A stretch of 64,000 nt of DNA, taken from positions 1-64,000 of the forward strand of contig NZ_SMLB01000001.1 of the NCBI RefSeq assembly GCF_004349105.1. The letters are read 5' to 3'. Source of the DNA: Jiangella aurantiaca. GTDB taxonomy: Bacteria > Actinomycetota > Actinomycetes > Jiangellales > Jiangellaceae. The stretch's first letter is position 1. The number at the start of each line of letters is the position of its first letter. Made by a program: the position numbers and the translations under genes. The notes beneath the pieces were generated by a model that did no database searches, was not told the origin of the DNA, and was given only the letters and a program-made list of their open reading frames with translations. This document shows, one piece after another, positions 28,913-40,548 of the stretch.

Positions 28913-33340
<4,428 letters not shown>

Positions 33341-33559
33341 GCGGGCTCCTTCAACGACGAACCCGCCGGCCACTCCGGGGTGTGGTGGCGACGGGTCGGT
33401 AGTACGCGCGAACGTGCTGGCGGGATGGAAACGTGGCACCGGTGTCCGCGCGGTGGCGTCGGCATCACCGGCCTCCTCAGGAGCGAGGTTCCTGGCAGCT
33501 GGCGTGCTGCTATGCACATTGCCATGAGCTGCTCGGTAACGGGTGAAACTAGACGAAGC

Positions 33560-34842: not shown

Positions 34843-34929
34843 TCCCTCCACCCTACGTCGGGTCTAGGATCGCCCGCATGGGCCGCCGTCCCTCGACGAA
34901 CACCGTGGTTTCTTCACTCGCTTCGTGGG

Positions 34930-34999
34930 CACTTCACCCGCCGGAGGACCGGATACCGCGCCGTTCCGGCCCTGGTGTGGTCTCGAAACGAGTGAGGTG
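34930..34999. repeat. 70-nt palindromic repeat, family 1, copy 2
   Basis: The same length and ends as copy 1: CACTTCACCCG at 34930-34940 pairs with CGAGTGAGGTG at 34989-34999, and GGACC/GGTC and ATACC/GGTGT pairings lie inside. The interior has diverged more than the ends. It lies 28 bp after the SMC-like gene's stop codon (in transcription direction), so it may also end that operon's transcript. No DUF559-type gene is beside this copy. Confidence 0.7.
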
Positions 35000-35026
35000 C
35001 ACACCGCCCGGGTGACAACGCCCGGT

Positions 35027-38000
35027 TCAGGCCGTGCCGGTCGACTCGACGTCGAGGGTGCCGGGGCGGTAGGAGGACATCCACGAGTGCAGCAGCTCGA
35101 CGCGGTCGGTGTTGGCGTCGTTGCCGACGACGACCGGCTCCTCGTTGTAGGCCATGGTGTCCGACCGGCGCCGCAGCTTGATGTAGAGGCCGGACGCCTC
35201 GATGGCGTAGCGCTCCATGTCGTCCTGCAGCGCGCCGACGACGGTGATGTTGTGGTCGTTGCCGATCCGCTCGAACAGGGCGACGGCCTCGCGGCGGTGC
35301 TGCTTGCCGAGGTTGCGGCCGAGCTCGTCGAGGATGAGCAGTAGCGGCCGGTCGCCGCCGCGGGCCAGCGCCGCGGCGCAGACCAGCTTGACCGCCTTCT
35401 CGTCCATCTGGGCGGTGTTGCTGCGCAGCGTGTAGGCGGACATCCGCTGGCCCTCGGCGCGGCGCCACTTCGGGCTGACCGTCCACCGCCACGGCTTGTC
35501 CGGCTCCGACGGCGGCTCGGGCTCGGGGTAGTCCAGGCCGGCGCCGTAGCCGCCGTACTCCTGGTCGAGCCGGTCGAACTCCGCGGCTACCTTACGAAGC
35601 ATCGTCTTGATGCCGGCGGCGAGCGACGTCCGGTGGGCGCGCACCGTCTGCTCGGCCTCGCTGTACCCGAGCCGGGCGGCGTCGAGGTCGGCGGTGCGGC
35701 GGGCCCGCTGCTCGGCGATCTGCTTGAGCTGGTGCCGGTCGTGGTCCTCGTGGTCGCGCAGGTGGGTGTCCAGCGCCCGCAGCAGCGCCGCGACCAGCGA
35801 GACCCGCGTCTCCAGGGCCGCGCCGGACCAGTTCGGCGTGACCAGCAGCTCGCGCAGCTCCGCGGTCAGCTCCTCCGGTGGGGTGCCGGGCGGGAAGCAG
35901 CGGACGGCGACCTCGTCGGTGAGGCGGGTGGCGTCCTCGTCCCAGGCCGTAGTGGTGCGGGTTTGCAGGTCGGCCTGGAGCTCGACGAGGTGCCGGCGGG
36001 CGGCGTCGGGGGAATCGCCCCAGGCCTTCTCGCGGTCGAGCAGGGCGAGGCGGTCGCGCTCCTCGGTCAGCGCGAACCGGTCGGCCTCCTTCTCGCGCAG
36101 CGTCTGCGTGAGCCGCTTGCGGGTGTCGCGGAGGCTGGTGATCCGCTCCTCGCGGGAGTTGTGCACACCCAGCTCGTGGGCGTAGGCGGCCTCGGCCTCG
36201 GTCAGCCCGGGGGCGAGCGCATCGCGGTGCTCCTGGCGCTCCGCGTTGGCCGCGCGCAGCTCGCCGATCTCGTCCTGCAACGCCTCGGCGCGCTCCGCGG
36301 CCTCGGCCGCCTTCGCCCGCGTCTCGGCGCGCGACAGCGCCGTCCGGGCCTGCTCGACCACCGCGGCCGCCGCGTCGAGGGACGCGGTCAGCTCGCGGTG
36401 CGCCTCCTGGGCGGCGGCGACGCGGGCCGGCTGGCCGGTGATCGGCTCGGCGAACCCGCCGATGGCCAGCACCCCGGCGGCTTCGTCGACGACGGCGCCC
36501 TTGCCGGCCCGCGCGGCGACGGCGTCGAGGAACGTCGACAGATCGAAGCCACCGGCAGCGACATTTCGGGGGTCGGCCAGCACCAGCAGCGACCCGGGCA
36601 GCCCGGCCAGCGCCTTCGCCGCCTTCGTCGCGTCCTTCCGGCCGACCACCACGGCCTCGCGGTACGGCGACAGCCGCGGCTCCCACGCGTCCCGCTCGGC
36701 GGGGTCGACGGCGACGACGTCGACCAGCGCCGCGGCGCCGAGACCGGCCGCGCGCAGCCGTTCCACCTGCTCCGCGGCGACGTCGTCGCCGGACTCGGCC
36801 GCCGCCATCCGGCGGGCCGCCTCGTTCGCCGCGGCCCGGGCCACCGCCTGCGCCGCGATCGCGTCCTCCAGCGCGGTCCGCGCCTCGGCCAGCTCCGCCG
36901 CGGCGACGTCCGGGGTGCGGCCGTCTGCGGCGCGTGCCTCGTCGGAGAGCTGGCGCTGCGTCGTCGTCAGGCGGTCGAGGTGCTGGGTGGCGGCCAGCTG
37001 GGCGGCCTCCAGCTCGCGGTCGCGGGCGATCAGTTCGTTGCGCTTGCGCTGGGCCGCCTCGAACCGGCGCGCGGACTCGTCGTCGTCGGTCAGCGCGGCC
37101 AGCCGGTCCTCGACCGCCTCGAGCTCCTGGCGCAGCGCCGCCTCGGTGTCGTCCAGCTCGGCCAGCGCCTGACGCAGCTCCGCCGCGCGCTCGACGCCGT
37201 CCAGCAGGTGCCGGGCGCAGCGCGACCGCCACGCCGTCCGCGCCTCGCCGAGCAGCTCCCTGGCCGCGAGCCGGCGGGCGATGCCGGCTTCGATGACCGC
37301 GACCTCGCTCTCCCACTCGGCGATCTGCCGCTCGGTCTCCTCGACCTCGCTGCGGTGCCGGTGCTCGGCCGAGCGGAGCACCTGCTCGTGCTCCAGCTCG
37401 CGGTCCAGTCCGGTGAGCGTGGCGATCGCGTCGAAGATCCGGTGCGGCGGGAGGTCGTTCAGAGGCTGGGCCAGCAGGTTCGCCGCCTGGCTGGACCGCA
37501 CCGACGTCGAGAGGAACGACACGCAGCGCGCGTTCTGCCCGAACAACACCCGCGACAGCTGACCGGCGTGGAAGTCGGTGCGGCCGTTGCTGCGCGGCAG
37601 TTGCCCCCACAGCTCGTCGACTCGCGCGGCCCGCTCGGACTCCGTCGCCCCATAGGGCACGTGCAGCCCACTGGTCCAGCGCAGGTCGAGGTAGGGCGCC
37701 TTGCGGTTGATCCGGAGCCAGACCGTGACGGCGTCGTCCTGCGGCGCGCTGCCGGGCGGCGCGAAGACGCCGATGACGTAGCCGCGGTCGACGTTGGACC
37801 AGCGGCCCTCCTGCGCGGCCAGCTCGGCGGTGAACAGCAGCTCGGCCGCGCCGGCGGCGCCGCTGGCCAGCTTCCACTGCTCGTCGGCATGCAGCAGGCT
37901 CAGCGCGGCGATGAACGAGGACTTCCCGGCGCCGTTGGAGTCCTTCGGCCCCTGCCCGGCGACGGTGACCAGGCCCTGGCCGATCATCGGGACCGGGTGG

Positions 38001-38089
38001 GTGGACAGCCGGGAGATGTCGACGACCTGGACGCCGACGAGCACCCGCTCGCCGACGACGTCGAAGGCGCCCGGTGCGGCAGCGCTCAC
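35027..38089 (-). CDS. SMC/MukB-like ATPase of a condensin-type operon
   Basis: A 1020-residue ABC-type SMC-like protein. Walker A is GPKDSNGAGKSSFI with Lys56; Walker B is LLLILDELG with Asp921 and catalytic Glu922. Between them lie two long charged heptad stretches (residues about 150-450 and 565-830) separated by a globular hinge-like segment near 455-560 containing VDPAERDAWEPRLSPYREAV. Size and head sequence are closest to MksB/JetC. In place of a canonical LSGGE signature the segment before Walker B reads NTAQMDEKAVKLVC. GTG 38089 overlaps the upstream stop (GTGA). It is the last gene of a four-gene operon and no nuclease follows. Confidence 0.8.
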   Translation of the reverse strand: MSAAAPGAFDVVGERVLVGVQVVDISRLSTHPVPMIGQGLVTVAGQGPKDSNGAGKSSFIAALSLLHADEQWKLASGAAGAAELLFTAELAAQEGRWSNVDRGYVIGVFAPPGSAPQDDAVTVWLRINRKAPYLDLRWTSGLHVPYGATESERAARVDELWGQLPRSNGRTDFHAGQLSRVLFGQNARCVSFLSTSVRSSQAANLLAQPLNDLPPHRIFDAIATLTGLDRELEHEQVLRSAEHRHRSEVEETERQIAEWESEVAVIEAGIARRLAARELLGEARTAWRSRCARHLLDGVERAAELRQALAELDDTEAALRQELEAVEDRLAALTDDDESARRFEAAQRKRNELIARDRELEAAQLAATQHLDRLTTTQRQLSDEARAADGRTPDVAAAELAEARTALEDAIAAQAVARAAANEAARRMAAAESGDDVAAEQVERLRAAGLGAAALVDVVAVDPAERDAWEPRLSPYREAVVVGRKDATKAAKALAGLPGSLLVLADPRNVAAGGFDLSTFLDAVAARAGKGAVVDEAAGVLAIGGFAEPITGQPARVAAAQEAHRELTASLDAAAAVVEQARTALSRAETRAKAAEAAERAEALQDEIGELRAANAERQEHRDALAPGLTEAEAAYAHELGVHNSREERITSLRDTRKRLTQTLREKEADRFALTEERDRLALLDREKAWGDSPDAARRHLVELQADLQTRTTTAWDEDATRLTDEVAVRCFPPGTPPEELTAELRELLVTPNWSGAALETRVSLVAALLRALDTHLRDHEDHDRHQLKQIAEQRARRTADLDAARLGYSEAEQTVRAHRTSLAAGIKTMLRKVAAEFDRLDQEYGGYGAGLDYPEPEPPSEPDKPWRWTVSPKWRRAEGQRMSAYTLRSNTAQMDEKAVKLVCAAALARGGDRPLLLILDELGRNLGKQHRREAVALFERIGNDHNITVVGALQDDMERYAIEASGLYIKLRRRSDTMAYNEEPVVVGNDANTDRVELLHSWMSSYRPGTLDVESTGTA

Positions 38090-38796
38090 GTGTCCTCGTT
38101 CCTCTCGGTGGTGCTCGTCGCCGGGTCGGCCGCGGCCGCGACCGGGGCGGGGGCCGCCGCCGGACGGCGGGCGCGGATCGCCGCGGCCAGCGGGCTGTCC
38201 GGCGCGGCGGCCAGGATCAGCTCGTGCTCCAGCCGCTCCCGGGCCGCCTTGGTGAGCCGGTGCAGCGCGGGTCCGGGCAGGTAGGCGGGGCCGTCGGTGA
38301 CCGCGGACCGGCCGCGCGGCGGGGCGATCTGCACCAGCCCAGCGGCCCGCAGCCGCTGCAGCGCCGGCCGGATCTCGCCGCGTGGCAACTGGGTGTACCG
38401 CGTCAGCTCGTCGACCGAGGTCGGATGGGCCGACGTCCACGAGTCGCCGCTGACCAGCCCTTGACTTCGCGGGATCGCGACCGAGTGGACCAGCACCAGC
38501 ACCAGGACCGCGCGGTCGATGCGCGACTGGGCCGTGGCGCCCTCGGCGGCCAGCCGCGCCACGACGTCGTCGCGGAACCCCGACGTCCAGTGCGTGCTGC
38601 CGACCCGGACCAGCGTGCGGCCGAGCCGGTACAGCAGCCGTTGCAGGTCGCGGCGGACGGTCGCGTCGCGCAGCGCCAGCAGCTGCGCCTCGGGGACCGG
38701 CTCGCGGCCGTGCTCCAGCGCGGCGAACGCGGCCAGCACCTCGTCGCGGTGGCGCTCGTTCAGCTCGGCGAGGGCACTGTCGAAGACCGCGCTCAT
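38086..38796 (-). CDS. Winged-helix subunit of condensin-like operon (MukE/JetB-like?)
   Basis: A 236-residue protein: an N-terminal helical half (ALAELNERHRDEVLAAFAAL ... RRDLQRLLYRLGRTLVRVG), a winged helix in the middle (SVDELTRYTQLPRGEIRPALQRLRAAGLVQIAPPRG), and a disordered Ala/Pro tail. Small winged-helix proteins between a kleisin and an SMC are the mark of MukE/JetB/ScpB (kite) subunits. I know no family name for it. ATG 38796 overlaps the previous stop by ATGA, and its own stop overlaps the SMC start, so all are made in fixed ratio. Confidence 0.6.
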   Translation of the reverse strand: MSAVFDSALAELNERHRDEVLAAFAALEHGREPVPEAQLLALRDATVRRDLQRLLYRLGRTLVRVGSTHWTSGFRDDVVARLAAEGATAQSRIDRAVLVLVLVHSVAIPRSQGLVSGDSWTSAHPTSVDELTRYTQLPRGEIRPALQRLRAAGLVQIAPPRGRSAVTDGPAYLPGPALHRLTKAARERLEHELILAAAPDSPLAAAIRARRPAAAPAPVAAAADPATSTTERNEDT

Positions 38797-39326
38797 GCGC
38801 CGCCCGCCGGTGGGGCGGGCAGCGAGCGCCACAGCTCGCGCAGCGTGCTCAGCTCCGCGGCGCTCCACGACGCGACCCGCGGGCCGAGCCGGACGACGCG
38901 GGTGTCCTCGTCGAACAGCACCCAGCCGGCACCGGCCAGCCGGCGCACCGCGCCCATCGCGGCGGCGTGCAGCGCGCGCTCGTCGCGGCTGCCGGTGATG
39001 GCCCGGAACACGCCGATGACGTGGTCGAACGGCGCCGGCACGGCAGGCCAGACCGGGCCGGTGGGCTCGTTCCAGCAGCAGCGCAGGCAGGCCGCCAGCA
39101 CGCGCGCGGTGTCGTTCGGCTGGTCGACGGCGATGCCCGGCAGCCCGAGCTCGTCGAGCACGTCCGGGCGGGCGTTGTCAGGCAGCTCGGGCAGCAGCCA
39201 GACGGCACTCGCGTCCGGCTCGACCAGGCGGATCATGCCGGTGGGGTGGGCGCTGGCGGGCGGGACGCGCTCGGGTCCGGCCGCGCGGTGCCGCGCCCAC
39301 CAGAGGGCGGTGTCGTCGATGCTCAT
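38793..39326 (-). CDS. Small second subunit of condensin-like operon
   Basis: A 177-residue protein that I do not recognise. The sequence is Trp-rich (ALWWARHR, CCWNEPTGPVWPAV, RVASWSAAELSTLRELWRSL) and the C-terminal 60 residues read as another winged helix (ALHAAAMGAVRRLAGAGWVLFDEDTRVV). The start is one base after the kleisin-like stop (TGACATG) and its end overlaps the next gene. A second small subunit is not part of MukBEF, MksBEF or Wadjet as usually described, unless it plays the kite role itself. Confidence 0.55.
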   Translation of the reverse strand: MSIDDTALWWARHRAAGPERVPPASAHPTGMIRLVEPDASAVWLLPELPDNARPDVLDELGLPGIAVDQPNDTARVLAACLRCCWNEPTGPVWPAVPAPFDHVIGVFRAITGSRDERALHAAAMGAVRRLAGAGWVLFDEDTRVVRLGPRVASWSAAELSTLRELWRSLPAPPAGGA

Positions 39327-39327
39327 G

Positions 39328-40548
39328 TCAGGCGGCGTCCTCGGTGCGGCCGCGGCGGAACGTCCCGTCCGACACCCAGGACGGGCTGCCGCCGGGGTCG
39401 ACGTGCAGGCCGTCGGACCAGGTCAGCTCGTACGCGAGGTCGGGATGGTGGTGGATGGCGGTGAGGTCGGCCAGCAACCGGCGGGCGGCCAGCCAGTCGC
39501 CGGCATCGTCGAGCACATCCGAGACCGCCACGGCGTCGCCGTCGCCGAGCAGCCGCTCCGCGGTCTCGCGCAGGCTCGCGGCGTCGTCGGCCGGGCGGAC
39601 GTCGTCCGGCGGTGGTGCGGCCGGGCCCTCGGGCCGGGGCGGCGGCTGCCGGACGGTGTTCGCGCCGCGGCCGCTCTCGACCGCCTCGGTGAGCAGGTTC
39701 GGCGAGAACCACGGCGCCGGCGCGTCGAAGACGAACGTGTCGAGCACCCCGGCGAGGTCGTCCTCGTTCGCCGTCCTGGCGAAGCTCAGCCAGGTCTCGA
39801 CGGACAGCAGCCCGAGCGCCCGCGTCGTCCCGGCCCGCTCGATCAGCCGCCCGGCCGCCTTCTCGACGGCGTCGCCGTACGCGGCCAGCGCGACCCGCAG
39901 CGCCGTGCACTCGCGGTCCAGCTGCGGCCAGCGGTTCAGCACGACGGTGTGGACCTCTTCGGCCTGGCTGATCAGGCCCTTGTTGCCCCAGAGCAGCTGC
40001 GCGTGGTCGCCCAGCTGCTCGGCGGTGCTGCCGGCGGCGAGGATGGCCAGCTCGTTGCCGAGGTGGCGGAAGATCCGGGTCAGCCGGCTGATCGTGGTCT
40101 GCCCGGTCTCGGGTTCGGCGTCGGGCGCGGTGACGCTGACGTGCTCGAGCGTGAGCAGCTGGTGCAGCTCGGCCTGACCGCCCTGCTCGGCCAGCCGGCG
40201 CAGGAACAGCAGCATGACATACGGCGCGAACGCGGCCCGGTGGAACCGCTCGTTGGGGCGGTCGACGACCTTGCTGATCGCGCCGTAGTCGCGGAGCACC
40301 TCGAACCGGCGGTGGATGAGGCCGGGGTCGATCGGCCGGCACGCGGCGACCGCCTGGTCGACGGTGAGCCCGTCGCGCCCGGCGTCGGCGAACGCGTCGA
40401 GGATCGCCTCGTCGACGTCGAGCAGCTCGAGATCGCTGATCATCGCGCCGGACTCGCGCGCGAGCACCGCGAAGACCTGCCGGTACAGCCGCTCGACGGC
40501 GGCGTCGCCGGCGAGCTGGTCCAGCGTCAGCTCGGGCCCGGCGGTCAT
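39328..40548 (-). CDS. Kleisin-like (MukF/JetA-like) subunit
   Basis: A 406-residue, mainly helical protein, first gene of the operon. An N-terminal winged helix (GLTVDQAVAACRPIDPGLIHRRFEVLRDYGAISKV then PNERFHRAAFAPYVMLLFLR) is followed by long helices (TISRLTRIFRHLGNELAIL ... HTVVLNRWPQLDRECTALRVALAAYGDAV), a Pro-rich linker near 305-335 and a C-terminal domain. Length, wing-then-helix order and position match MukF/JetA proteins, which bridge the SMC heads. Assignment is from architecture and context. ATG 40548 starts it; the ribosome site is weak. Confidence 0.65.
   Translation of the reverse strand: MTAGPELTLDQLAGDAAVERLYRQVFAVLARESGAMISDLELLDVDEAILDAFADAGRDGLTVDQAVAACRPIDPGLIHRRFEVLRDYGAISKVVDRPNERFHRAAFAPYVMLLFLRRLAEQGGQAELHQLLTLEHVSVTAPDAEPETGQTTISRLTRIFRHLGNELAILAAGSTAEQLGDHAQLLWGNKGLISQAEEVHTVVLNRWPQLDRECTALRVALAAYGDAVEKAAGRLIERAGTTRALGLLSVETWLSFARTANEDDLAGVLDTFVFDAPAPWFSPNLLTEAVESGRGANTVRQPPPRPEGPAAPPPDDVRPADDAASLRETAERLLGDGDAVAVSDVLDDAGDWLAARRLLADLTAIHHHPDLAYELTWSDGLHVDPGGSPSWVSDGTFRRGRTEDAA

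Follow-up and report, generated by a model that had tools for sequence, protein, structure and literature searches.

A nuclease-free, condensin-like operon of Jiangella aurantiaca as a probable divergent relative of Wadjet/MksBEF

The 64,000-nt stretch of DNA that was analysed (the window), from the soil bacterium Jiangella aurantiaca, contains a four-gene operon, KLE-WH1-WH2-SMC, which is best read as a divergent, unannotated Actinomycetota relative of Wadjet/MksBEF (Table 1). A preliminary description of the same sequence had reported four overlapping minus-strand genes. Their place, strand and sizes were as reported, and two of the three junctions (WH1/WH2 and WH2/SMC) are 4-nt overlaps (ATGA and GTGA), but KLE and WH1 do not overlap and lie 1 nt apart. 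The neighbours, an SDR enzyme and a CoA-binding protein, had been named correctly. For KLE, WH1, WH2 and SMC no Pfam or NCBIfam model gave a match above cut-off and the PADLOC matches were weak, which agrees with the earlier view that the genes diverge from the named types; they appear to form a branch of SMC machines overlooked by annotation libraries. The literature searched held no description of the KLE-WH1-WH2-SMC family, and an earlier description is possible.

Table 1. Features of the operon in the window and of effector-slot genes and gene fusions in related loci (L numbers).
Feature	Coordinates	Strand	Remarks
KLE, kleisin-like subunit	39328..40548	minus	406 aa ORF, predicted MukF/JetA-like
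WH1	38793..39326	minus	177 aa, one C-terminal winged helix, probable second KITE-like partner
WH2	38086..38796	minus	236 aa, predicted tandem winged-helix KITE subunit
SMC	35027..38089	minus	1020 aa coiled-coil ABC ATPase, GTG start
Walker A of SMC, GPKDSNGAGKSS, residues 47-58	37916..37951	minus	mostly invariant or nearly so in alignment
ABC signature position of SMC, residues 891-898	35396..35419	minus	unusual NTAQMDEK, aligned with JetC NSGGEQEK
Walker B of SMC, LLLILDE, residues 916-922	35324..35344	minus	from alignment
Empty effector slot	34852..35026	minus	175-nt intergenic gap; jetD or kinase fusion there in relatives
JetD-N/kinase fusion genes	L045:7778-9157, L073:11120-12496		
342-349 aa gene after kinase fusion	L045:9230-10279, L073:12540-13568		common to these two loci only
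WH1-WH2 fusion loci	L145, L146, L147, L149, L150, L152-L155, L157		single ORF

The SMC gene was present as one copy each in 12/12 Jiangella genomes and in 2/2 genomes of one sister genus, and in none of the genomes examined from other sister genera. All four proteins were found in the 11 other Jiangella genomes and the 2 genomes of the sister genus, at 71-96% identity and in unchanged order. Given this retention and dN/dS values of 0.08-0.38 for the four genes across Jiangellaceae (neighbouring genes were in a similar range), the four are genuine genes, not ORFs that arose by chance. The translational coupling is preserved across the Jiangella relatives and the operon is syntenic in the genus, with ROK/SDR on one side and the CoA-binding gene on the other. 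The Jiangella operon is a vertically inherited unit under purifying selection, and its pattern looks like that of housekeeping genes. That it could be the canonical Smc-ScpA-ScpB of the cell was ruled out, since contig C60 of the J. aurantiaca genome carries an ScpA gene of its own. A subtilisin-like ORF of 1534 aa (window 28913-33517) is kept beside the operon in most Jiangella.

The condensin-like identity proposed in the preliminary description was borne out by fold searches and by comparison of the SMC heads with the JetC profile. The AlphaFold model of KLE (pLDDT 62, modest) has an N-terminal winged helix (residues ~40-105) followed by a helical middle, a disordered Pro-rich linker (residues ~293-318) with a conserved PPPRP, and a C-terminal winged helix (residues ~323-399). 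When this model was compared with 350,542 PDB chains using Foldseek, ranks 1 and 2 were MukF (9gm7_C and 3euh_B) and JetA was found at ranks 12 (E. coli JetA) and 26; the E-values were 0.005-0.3, none being <=0.001, and many MarR and Fur chains followed further down the list. PADLOC models and profile comparison gave no match between KLE and JetA. The fold ranking would make KLE a MukF/JetA-like kleisin. The predicted structure of WH2 (pLDDT 83) has tandem winged helices, and its Foldseek matches comprised ScpB (ranks 1, 2, 4, 6 and 7), MukE (ranks 8, 9 and 11), JetB (8as8_C, rank 18) and also cryo-EM Smc5/6 chains. Given that ScpB, MukE and JetB are among its best fold matches, WH2 is predicted to be a JetB-like KITE protein of the ScpB/MukE/JetB kind.

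For WH1 the C-terminal part showed a weak profile match to the second winged helix of JetB (P = 0.029, reversed control 0.36) and hhalign gave no clear relationship between WH1 and WH2. The best evidence for its role beside WH2 is the fusion of the two into one ORF, which was seen in 10/13 Streptosporangiaceae-like loci holding both, and WH1 is a probable KITE-like partner of WH2. In several fusion loci, and also in L043 and L060, SbcC/SbcD-like genes were observed within about 8 kb. Single-protein and profile sequence searches against the PDB yielded no informative kleisin or KITE match.

In restricted profile comparisons with reversed controls, the N-head of SMC matched JetC at P = 0.0004 (reversed 0.61) and the C-head at P = 0.009 (reversed 0.43), with the head profiles aligned in register, which points to a JetC-like SMC ATPase at the level of sequence. 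The Walker motifs and heads are nearly invariant among the relatives. PADLOC JetC models matched some family members at up to 3.5e-6, partly via the coiled coil, and the matches of SMC to mad8 and to PbeC (PbeABCD is a phosphorothioation-based system) were judged to be coiled-coil or ATPase background.

A scan of GTDB genomes gave 58 related loci, all in Actinomycetota (Jiangella, Haloactinopolyspora, Kribbella, Kineosporia, Micromonospora, Actinoplanes and other genera). The order KLE-WH1-WH2-SMC on one strand was found in 54/58 loci and the other four were partial or broken. In a sample of the class, 28/394 genomes matched, 13 of the 28 being from one family, f17, which is probably Streptosporangiaceae given that a Nonomuraea sequence groups with it; sampling of f17 gave matches in 40/101 genomes, a large additional branch. 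The most distant member, in genome G187 of another class, has all four genes, likewise in this order, and JetD. No relative of the operon was found in viral contigs and no clear relative in the plasmid collection, in which the sole match was an 11.85 Mb chromosome-sized record.

Several loci were unusual in context or structure. The Kribbella loci are all near contig ends; a subtelomeric location was rejected, since two of these ends carry 5S rRNA, which suggests that assemblies broke at rRNA operons. Two Kribbella loci have an insertion between WH2 and SMC, which was discarded as an effector because it encodes a minus-strand, probably secreted protein. In Fodinicola feengrottensis (L076:5644-7920) parts of KLE, WH1 and WH2 are in one ORF with frameshifted pieces nearby, reflecting either a triple fusion or assembly errors. 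The locus of Antribacter gilvus (L046:7983-12370) has kept SMC and JetD, has lost KLE, WH1 and WH2, carries a resolvase-like gene upstream and looks like a broken copy of the operon.

The slot 3' of smc is occupied in 14 loci, by JetD in 12 and by a JetD-N/protein-kinase fusion in two. JetD directly after smc was thus found in 12/54 four-gene loci, and in addition in three partial loci; it is a divergent protein of 420-440 aa with a conserved toprim signature (E, DADLGG), matched by Pfam DUF2399/JetD_C and by PADLOC JetD models at up to 6e-11. The two fusions (one from Saccharothrix sp. NRRL B-16348, the other from a MAG of Dactylosporangium) retain the N-terminal domain of JetD, and a protein kinase replaces the toprim half (Pkinase E-values 6e-27 and 2.5e-27, with HRDIKPAN and the catalytic lysine preserved). 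A protein kinase gene that follows smc in two genomes of a single f17 genus is separate and lacks the JetD N-domain, and was excluded from this count. In Actinoplanes sp. KI2 (L065:131-5495) a pPIWI_RE gene and a gene for a 927 aa unknown protein are directly upstream of the five-gene JetD form, surroundings that suggest a defence island.

Nothing recognisable was found in the slot of about 40 four-gene loci and of the 12 full Streptosporangiaceae-like loci checked. The slot is empty in Jiangella, Kribbella, Kineosporia and the Streptosporangiaceae-like loci, the last having no conserved gene after smc, and this indicated a lineage-level state and not a private loss in J. aurantiaca. A JetD profile search of 26 empty-slot genomes, including complete single-contig genomes of Jiangella, gave no match while the control genome G187 was matched, and the Pfam JetD model had no match in the J. 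aurantiaca genome, with JetD neither near the operon nor elsewhere. A jetD remnant was sought in the gap after smc in J. aurantiaca and other Jiangella species and no trace was seen. In most Jiangella the space from smc to the CoA-binding gene is taken up by an ordinary proline-iminopeptidase-like gene (L023:10637-12283, with equivalents in L024-L031), which is absent in the window. Empty slots group by lineage on the SMC tree, where 5-6 changes are required to account for them; given that the distant member in G187 has JetD, we infer that JetD was repeatedly lost in the family, on a tree whose root is not secure.

These results confirmed the absence of a nuclease that the preliminary description had noted, both at the operon and, by JetD profile and Pfam model, in the rest of the genome. 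Its concern that homologues might nearly always have JetD adjacent was half borne out: JetD is adjacent in 12/54 four-gene loci and missing from the about 40 four-gene and 12 Streptosporangiaceae-like loci. The idea that a second small subunit had taken the place of the nuclease was rejected, since relatives carry WH1, WH2 and JetD together, and an effector encoded elsewhere, in the form of JetD, was found neither in this genome nor in the 26 empty-slot genomes.

Wadjet and MksBEFG carry JetD/MksG, a toprim nuclease that cuts plasmids, and MukBEF is a complex of three subunits that replaces Smc-ScpAB. The Jiangella operon resembles Wadjet (JetABCD), MksBEFG and EptABCD in combining an SMC ATPase, a predicted MukF-like kleisin and a predicted KITE protein in one operon, and several of its relatives have JetD (CAP-toprim) right after smc. 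It is unlike them in having two distinct small winged-helix subunits, against one in those systems, and no nuclease, in having no Pfam or NCBIfam match to the A, B or C subunits, and in the length of smc (about 1020 aa, versus 1118-1142 aa in reference Wadjet loci). Given that it departs from Wadjet in two defining features, the absent nuclease and the two small subunits, the operon was not classed as a Wadjet member. MksBEF without MksG (Pseudomonas type) is likewise a nuclease-free MukBEF-like complex beside Smc-ScpAB, whereas the Jiangella family has four subunits, is a different and very divergent one and has so far been found in Actinomycetota only. The likeness to MukBEF lies in MukF as the best Foldseek match of KLE and in the match of WH2 to MukE, but the Jiangella operon has a fourth subunit and ScpA is still present in the cell. 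Apart from the subunit number, the predicted anatomy agrees with that of MksBEF/MukBEF. If WH1 is a KITE protein, the asymmetric pair would be like the Nse1-Nse3 heterodimer of Smc5/6, which is eukaryotic and has additional subunits, whereas the pair of the Jiangella family can be one fused chain. Lamassu (LmuABC) was rejected, with one weak PADLOC LmuB match to one stretch of SMC (E 0.0004) and no LmuA-like match among the four proteins. Through loop extrusion, JetABC detects small circular DNA and then triggers JetD, in which a CAP domain is ahead of the toprim domain (PMC10586767). The MksBEFG of C. glutamicum acts on plasmids only, whereas a chromosomal role is assumed for the MksBEF complex of P. 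aeruginosa (PMC7083940).

Computation showed which genes are present, how they are ordered and conserved, what KLE and WH2 are at the level of fold, and that JetD is absent; beyond this, we lean towards an effector-free, Wadjet-related SMC complex of the KITE type that would serve as an auxiliary loop extruder on chromosomal DNA. A dimer of the SMC ATPase would be bridged by KLE as the MukF/JetA-like kleisin, on which WH1 and WH2 would sit together as an asymmetric pair of KITE proteins. Driven by ATP, the complex would extrude loops on chromosomal DNA without cutting it, an auxiliary condensin alongside Smc-ScpAB. Across the family, the slot after smc can be occupied by the toprim nuclease JetD or by the JetD-N/kinase fusion, or be empty. 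Given that the operon is conserved, selected, nuclease-free and accompanied by ScpA, and by analogy with the MksBEF of P. aeruginosa, the empty-slot complex in Jiangella most likely works like a nuclease-free MksBEF on chromosomal DNA.

A role in defence against plasmids or phages, with an effector encoded elsewhere or with circular DNA silenced by compaction, is in our judgement unlikely, though it has points in its favour. Smc5/6 silences episomes by compaction without cutting. The JetD-bearing family members are Wadjet-like, some adjoin defence-type genes such as pPIWI_RE, GmrSD and SbcCD, and the two members with a kinase in place of the nuclease imply that effectors are replaceable and perhaps difficult to spot. 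The patchy presence outside Jiangella (40/101 genomes in f17 and none in the other sister genera) fits a defence-type history as well as housekeeping. However, JetD was found nowhere in the 26 empty-slot genomes, no conserved gene follows smc in the Streptosporangiaceae-like loci, and in Jiangella the operon is universal, syntenic and single-copy, unlike a typical patchy defence system; the lack of a relative in viral contigs, and a plasmid-collection match limited to the chromosome-sized record of 11.85 Mb, also speak against it.

The intact state of the four genes, with dN/dS of 0.08-0.38 across Jiangellaceae, nearly invariant Walker motifs and heads and no jetD remnant in the slot, has already largely refuted the idea of a Wadjet that lost its nuclease and is now decaying without function. 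We regard such decay as very improbable, even though it takes several (5-6) changes on the SMC tree to explain the absence of JetD, and the presence of JetD in the distant relative suggests that the nuclease is ancestral. Only slightly less improbable is that SMC is a coiled-coil ATPase of the Rad50/RecN or Lamassu kind, accompanied by unrelated regulators with winged helices, and not part of an SMC-kleisin-KITE complex. The weak match of the PADLOC LmuB model to SMC (E 0.0004) would fit this, as would the frequent occurrence of winged helices in regulators and the numerous MarR and Fur chains at lower Foldseek ranks for KLE. Against it, KLE found MukF at ranks 1 and 2 and JetA as well, WH2 found ScpB, MukE and JetB high among the 350,542 chains, and relatives have JetD-type partners within the same operon.

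Plasmid-cutting Wadjet and chromosome-folding MukBEF/MksBEF have a motor in common, and the family bears on how one becomes the other. Closely related members with a nuclease, a kinase or no effector make the effector switch accessible by comparison, removal or swap. A kinase in the position of JetD would suggest a loop-extruding DNA sensor that triggers signalling instead of cutting. If the KITE pair is asymmetric or fused, bacteria would have a counterpart of Nse1-Nse3. We see an even chance that the family is an undescribed class of bacterial SMC complexes, in which the KITE pair is asymmetric and sometimes fused and the effector slot can be filled by JetD, by the kinase fusion with its partner gene, or by nothing; its empty-slot forms would be auxiliary condensins of the core genome.
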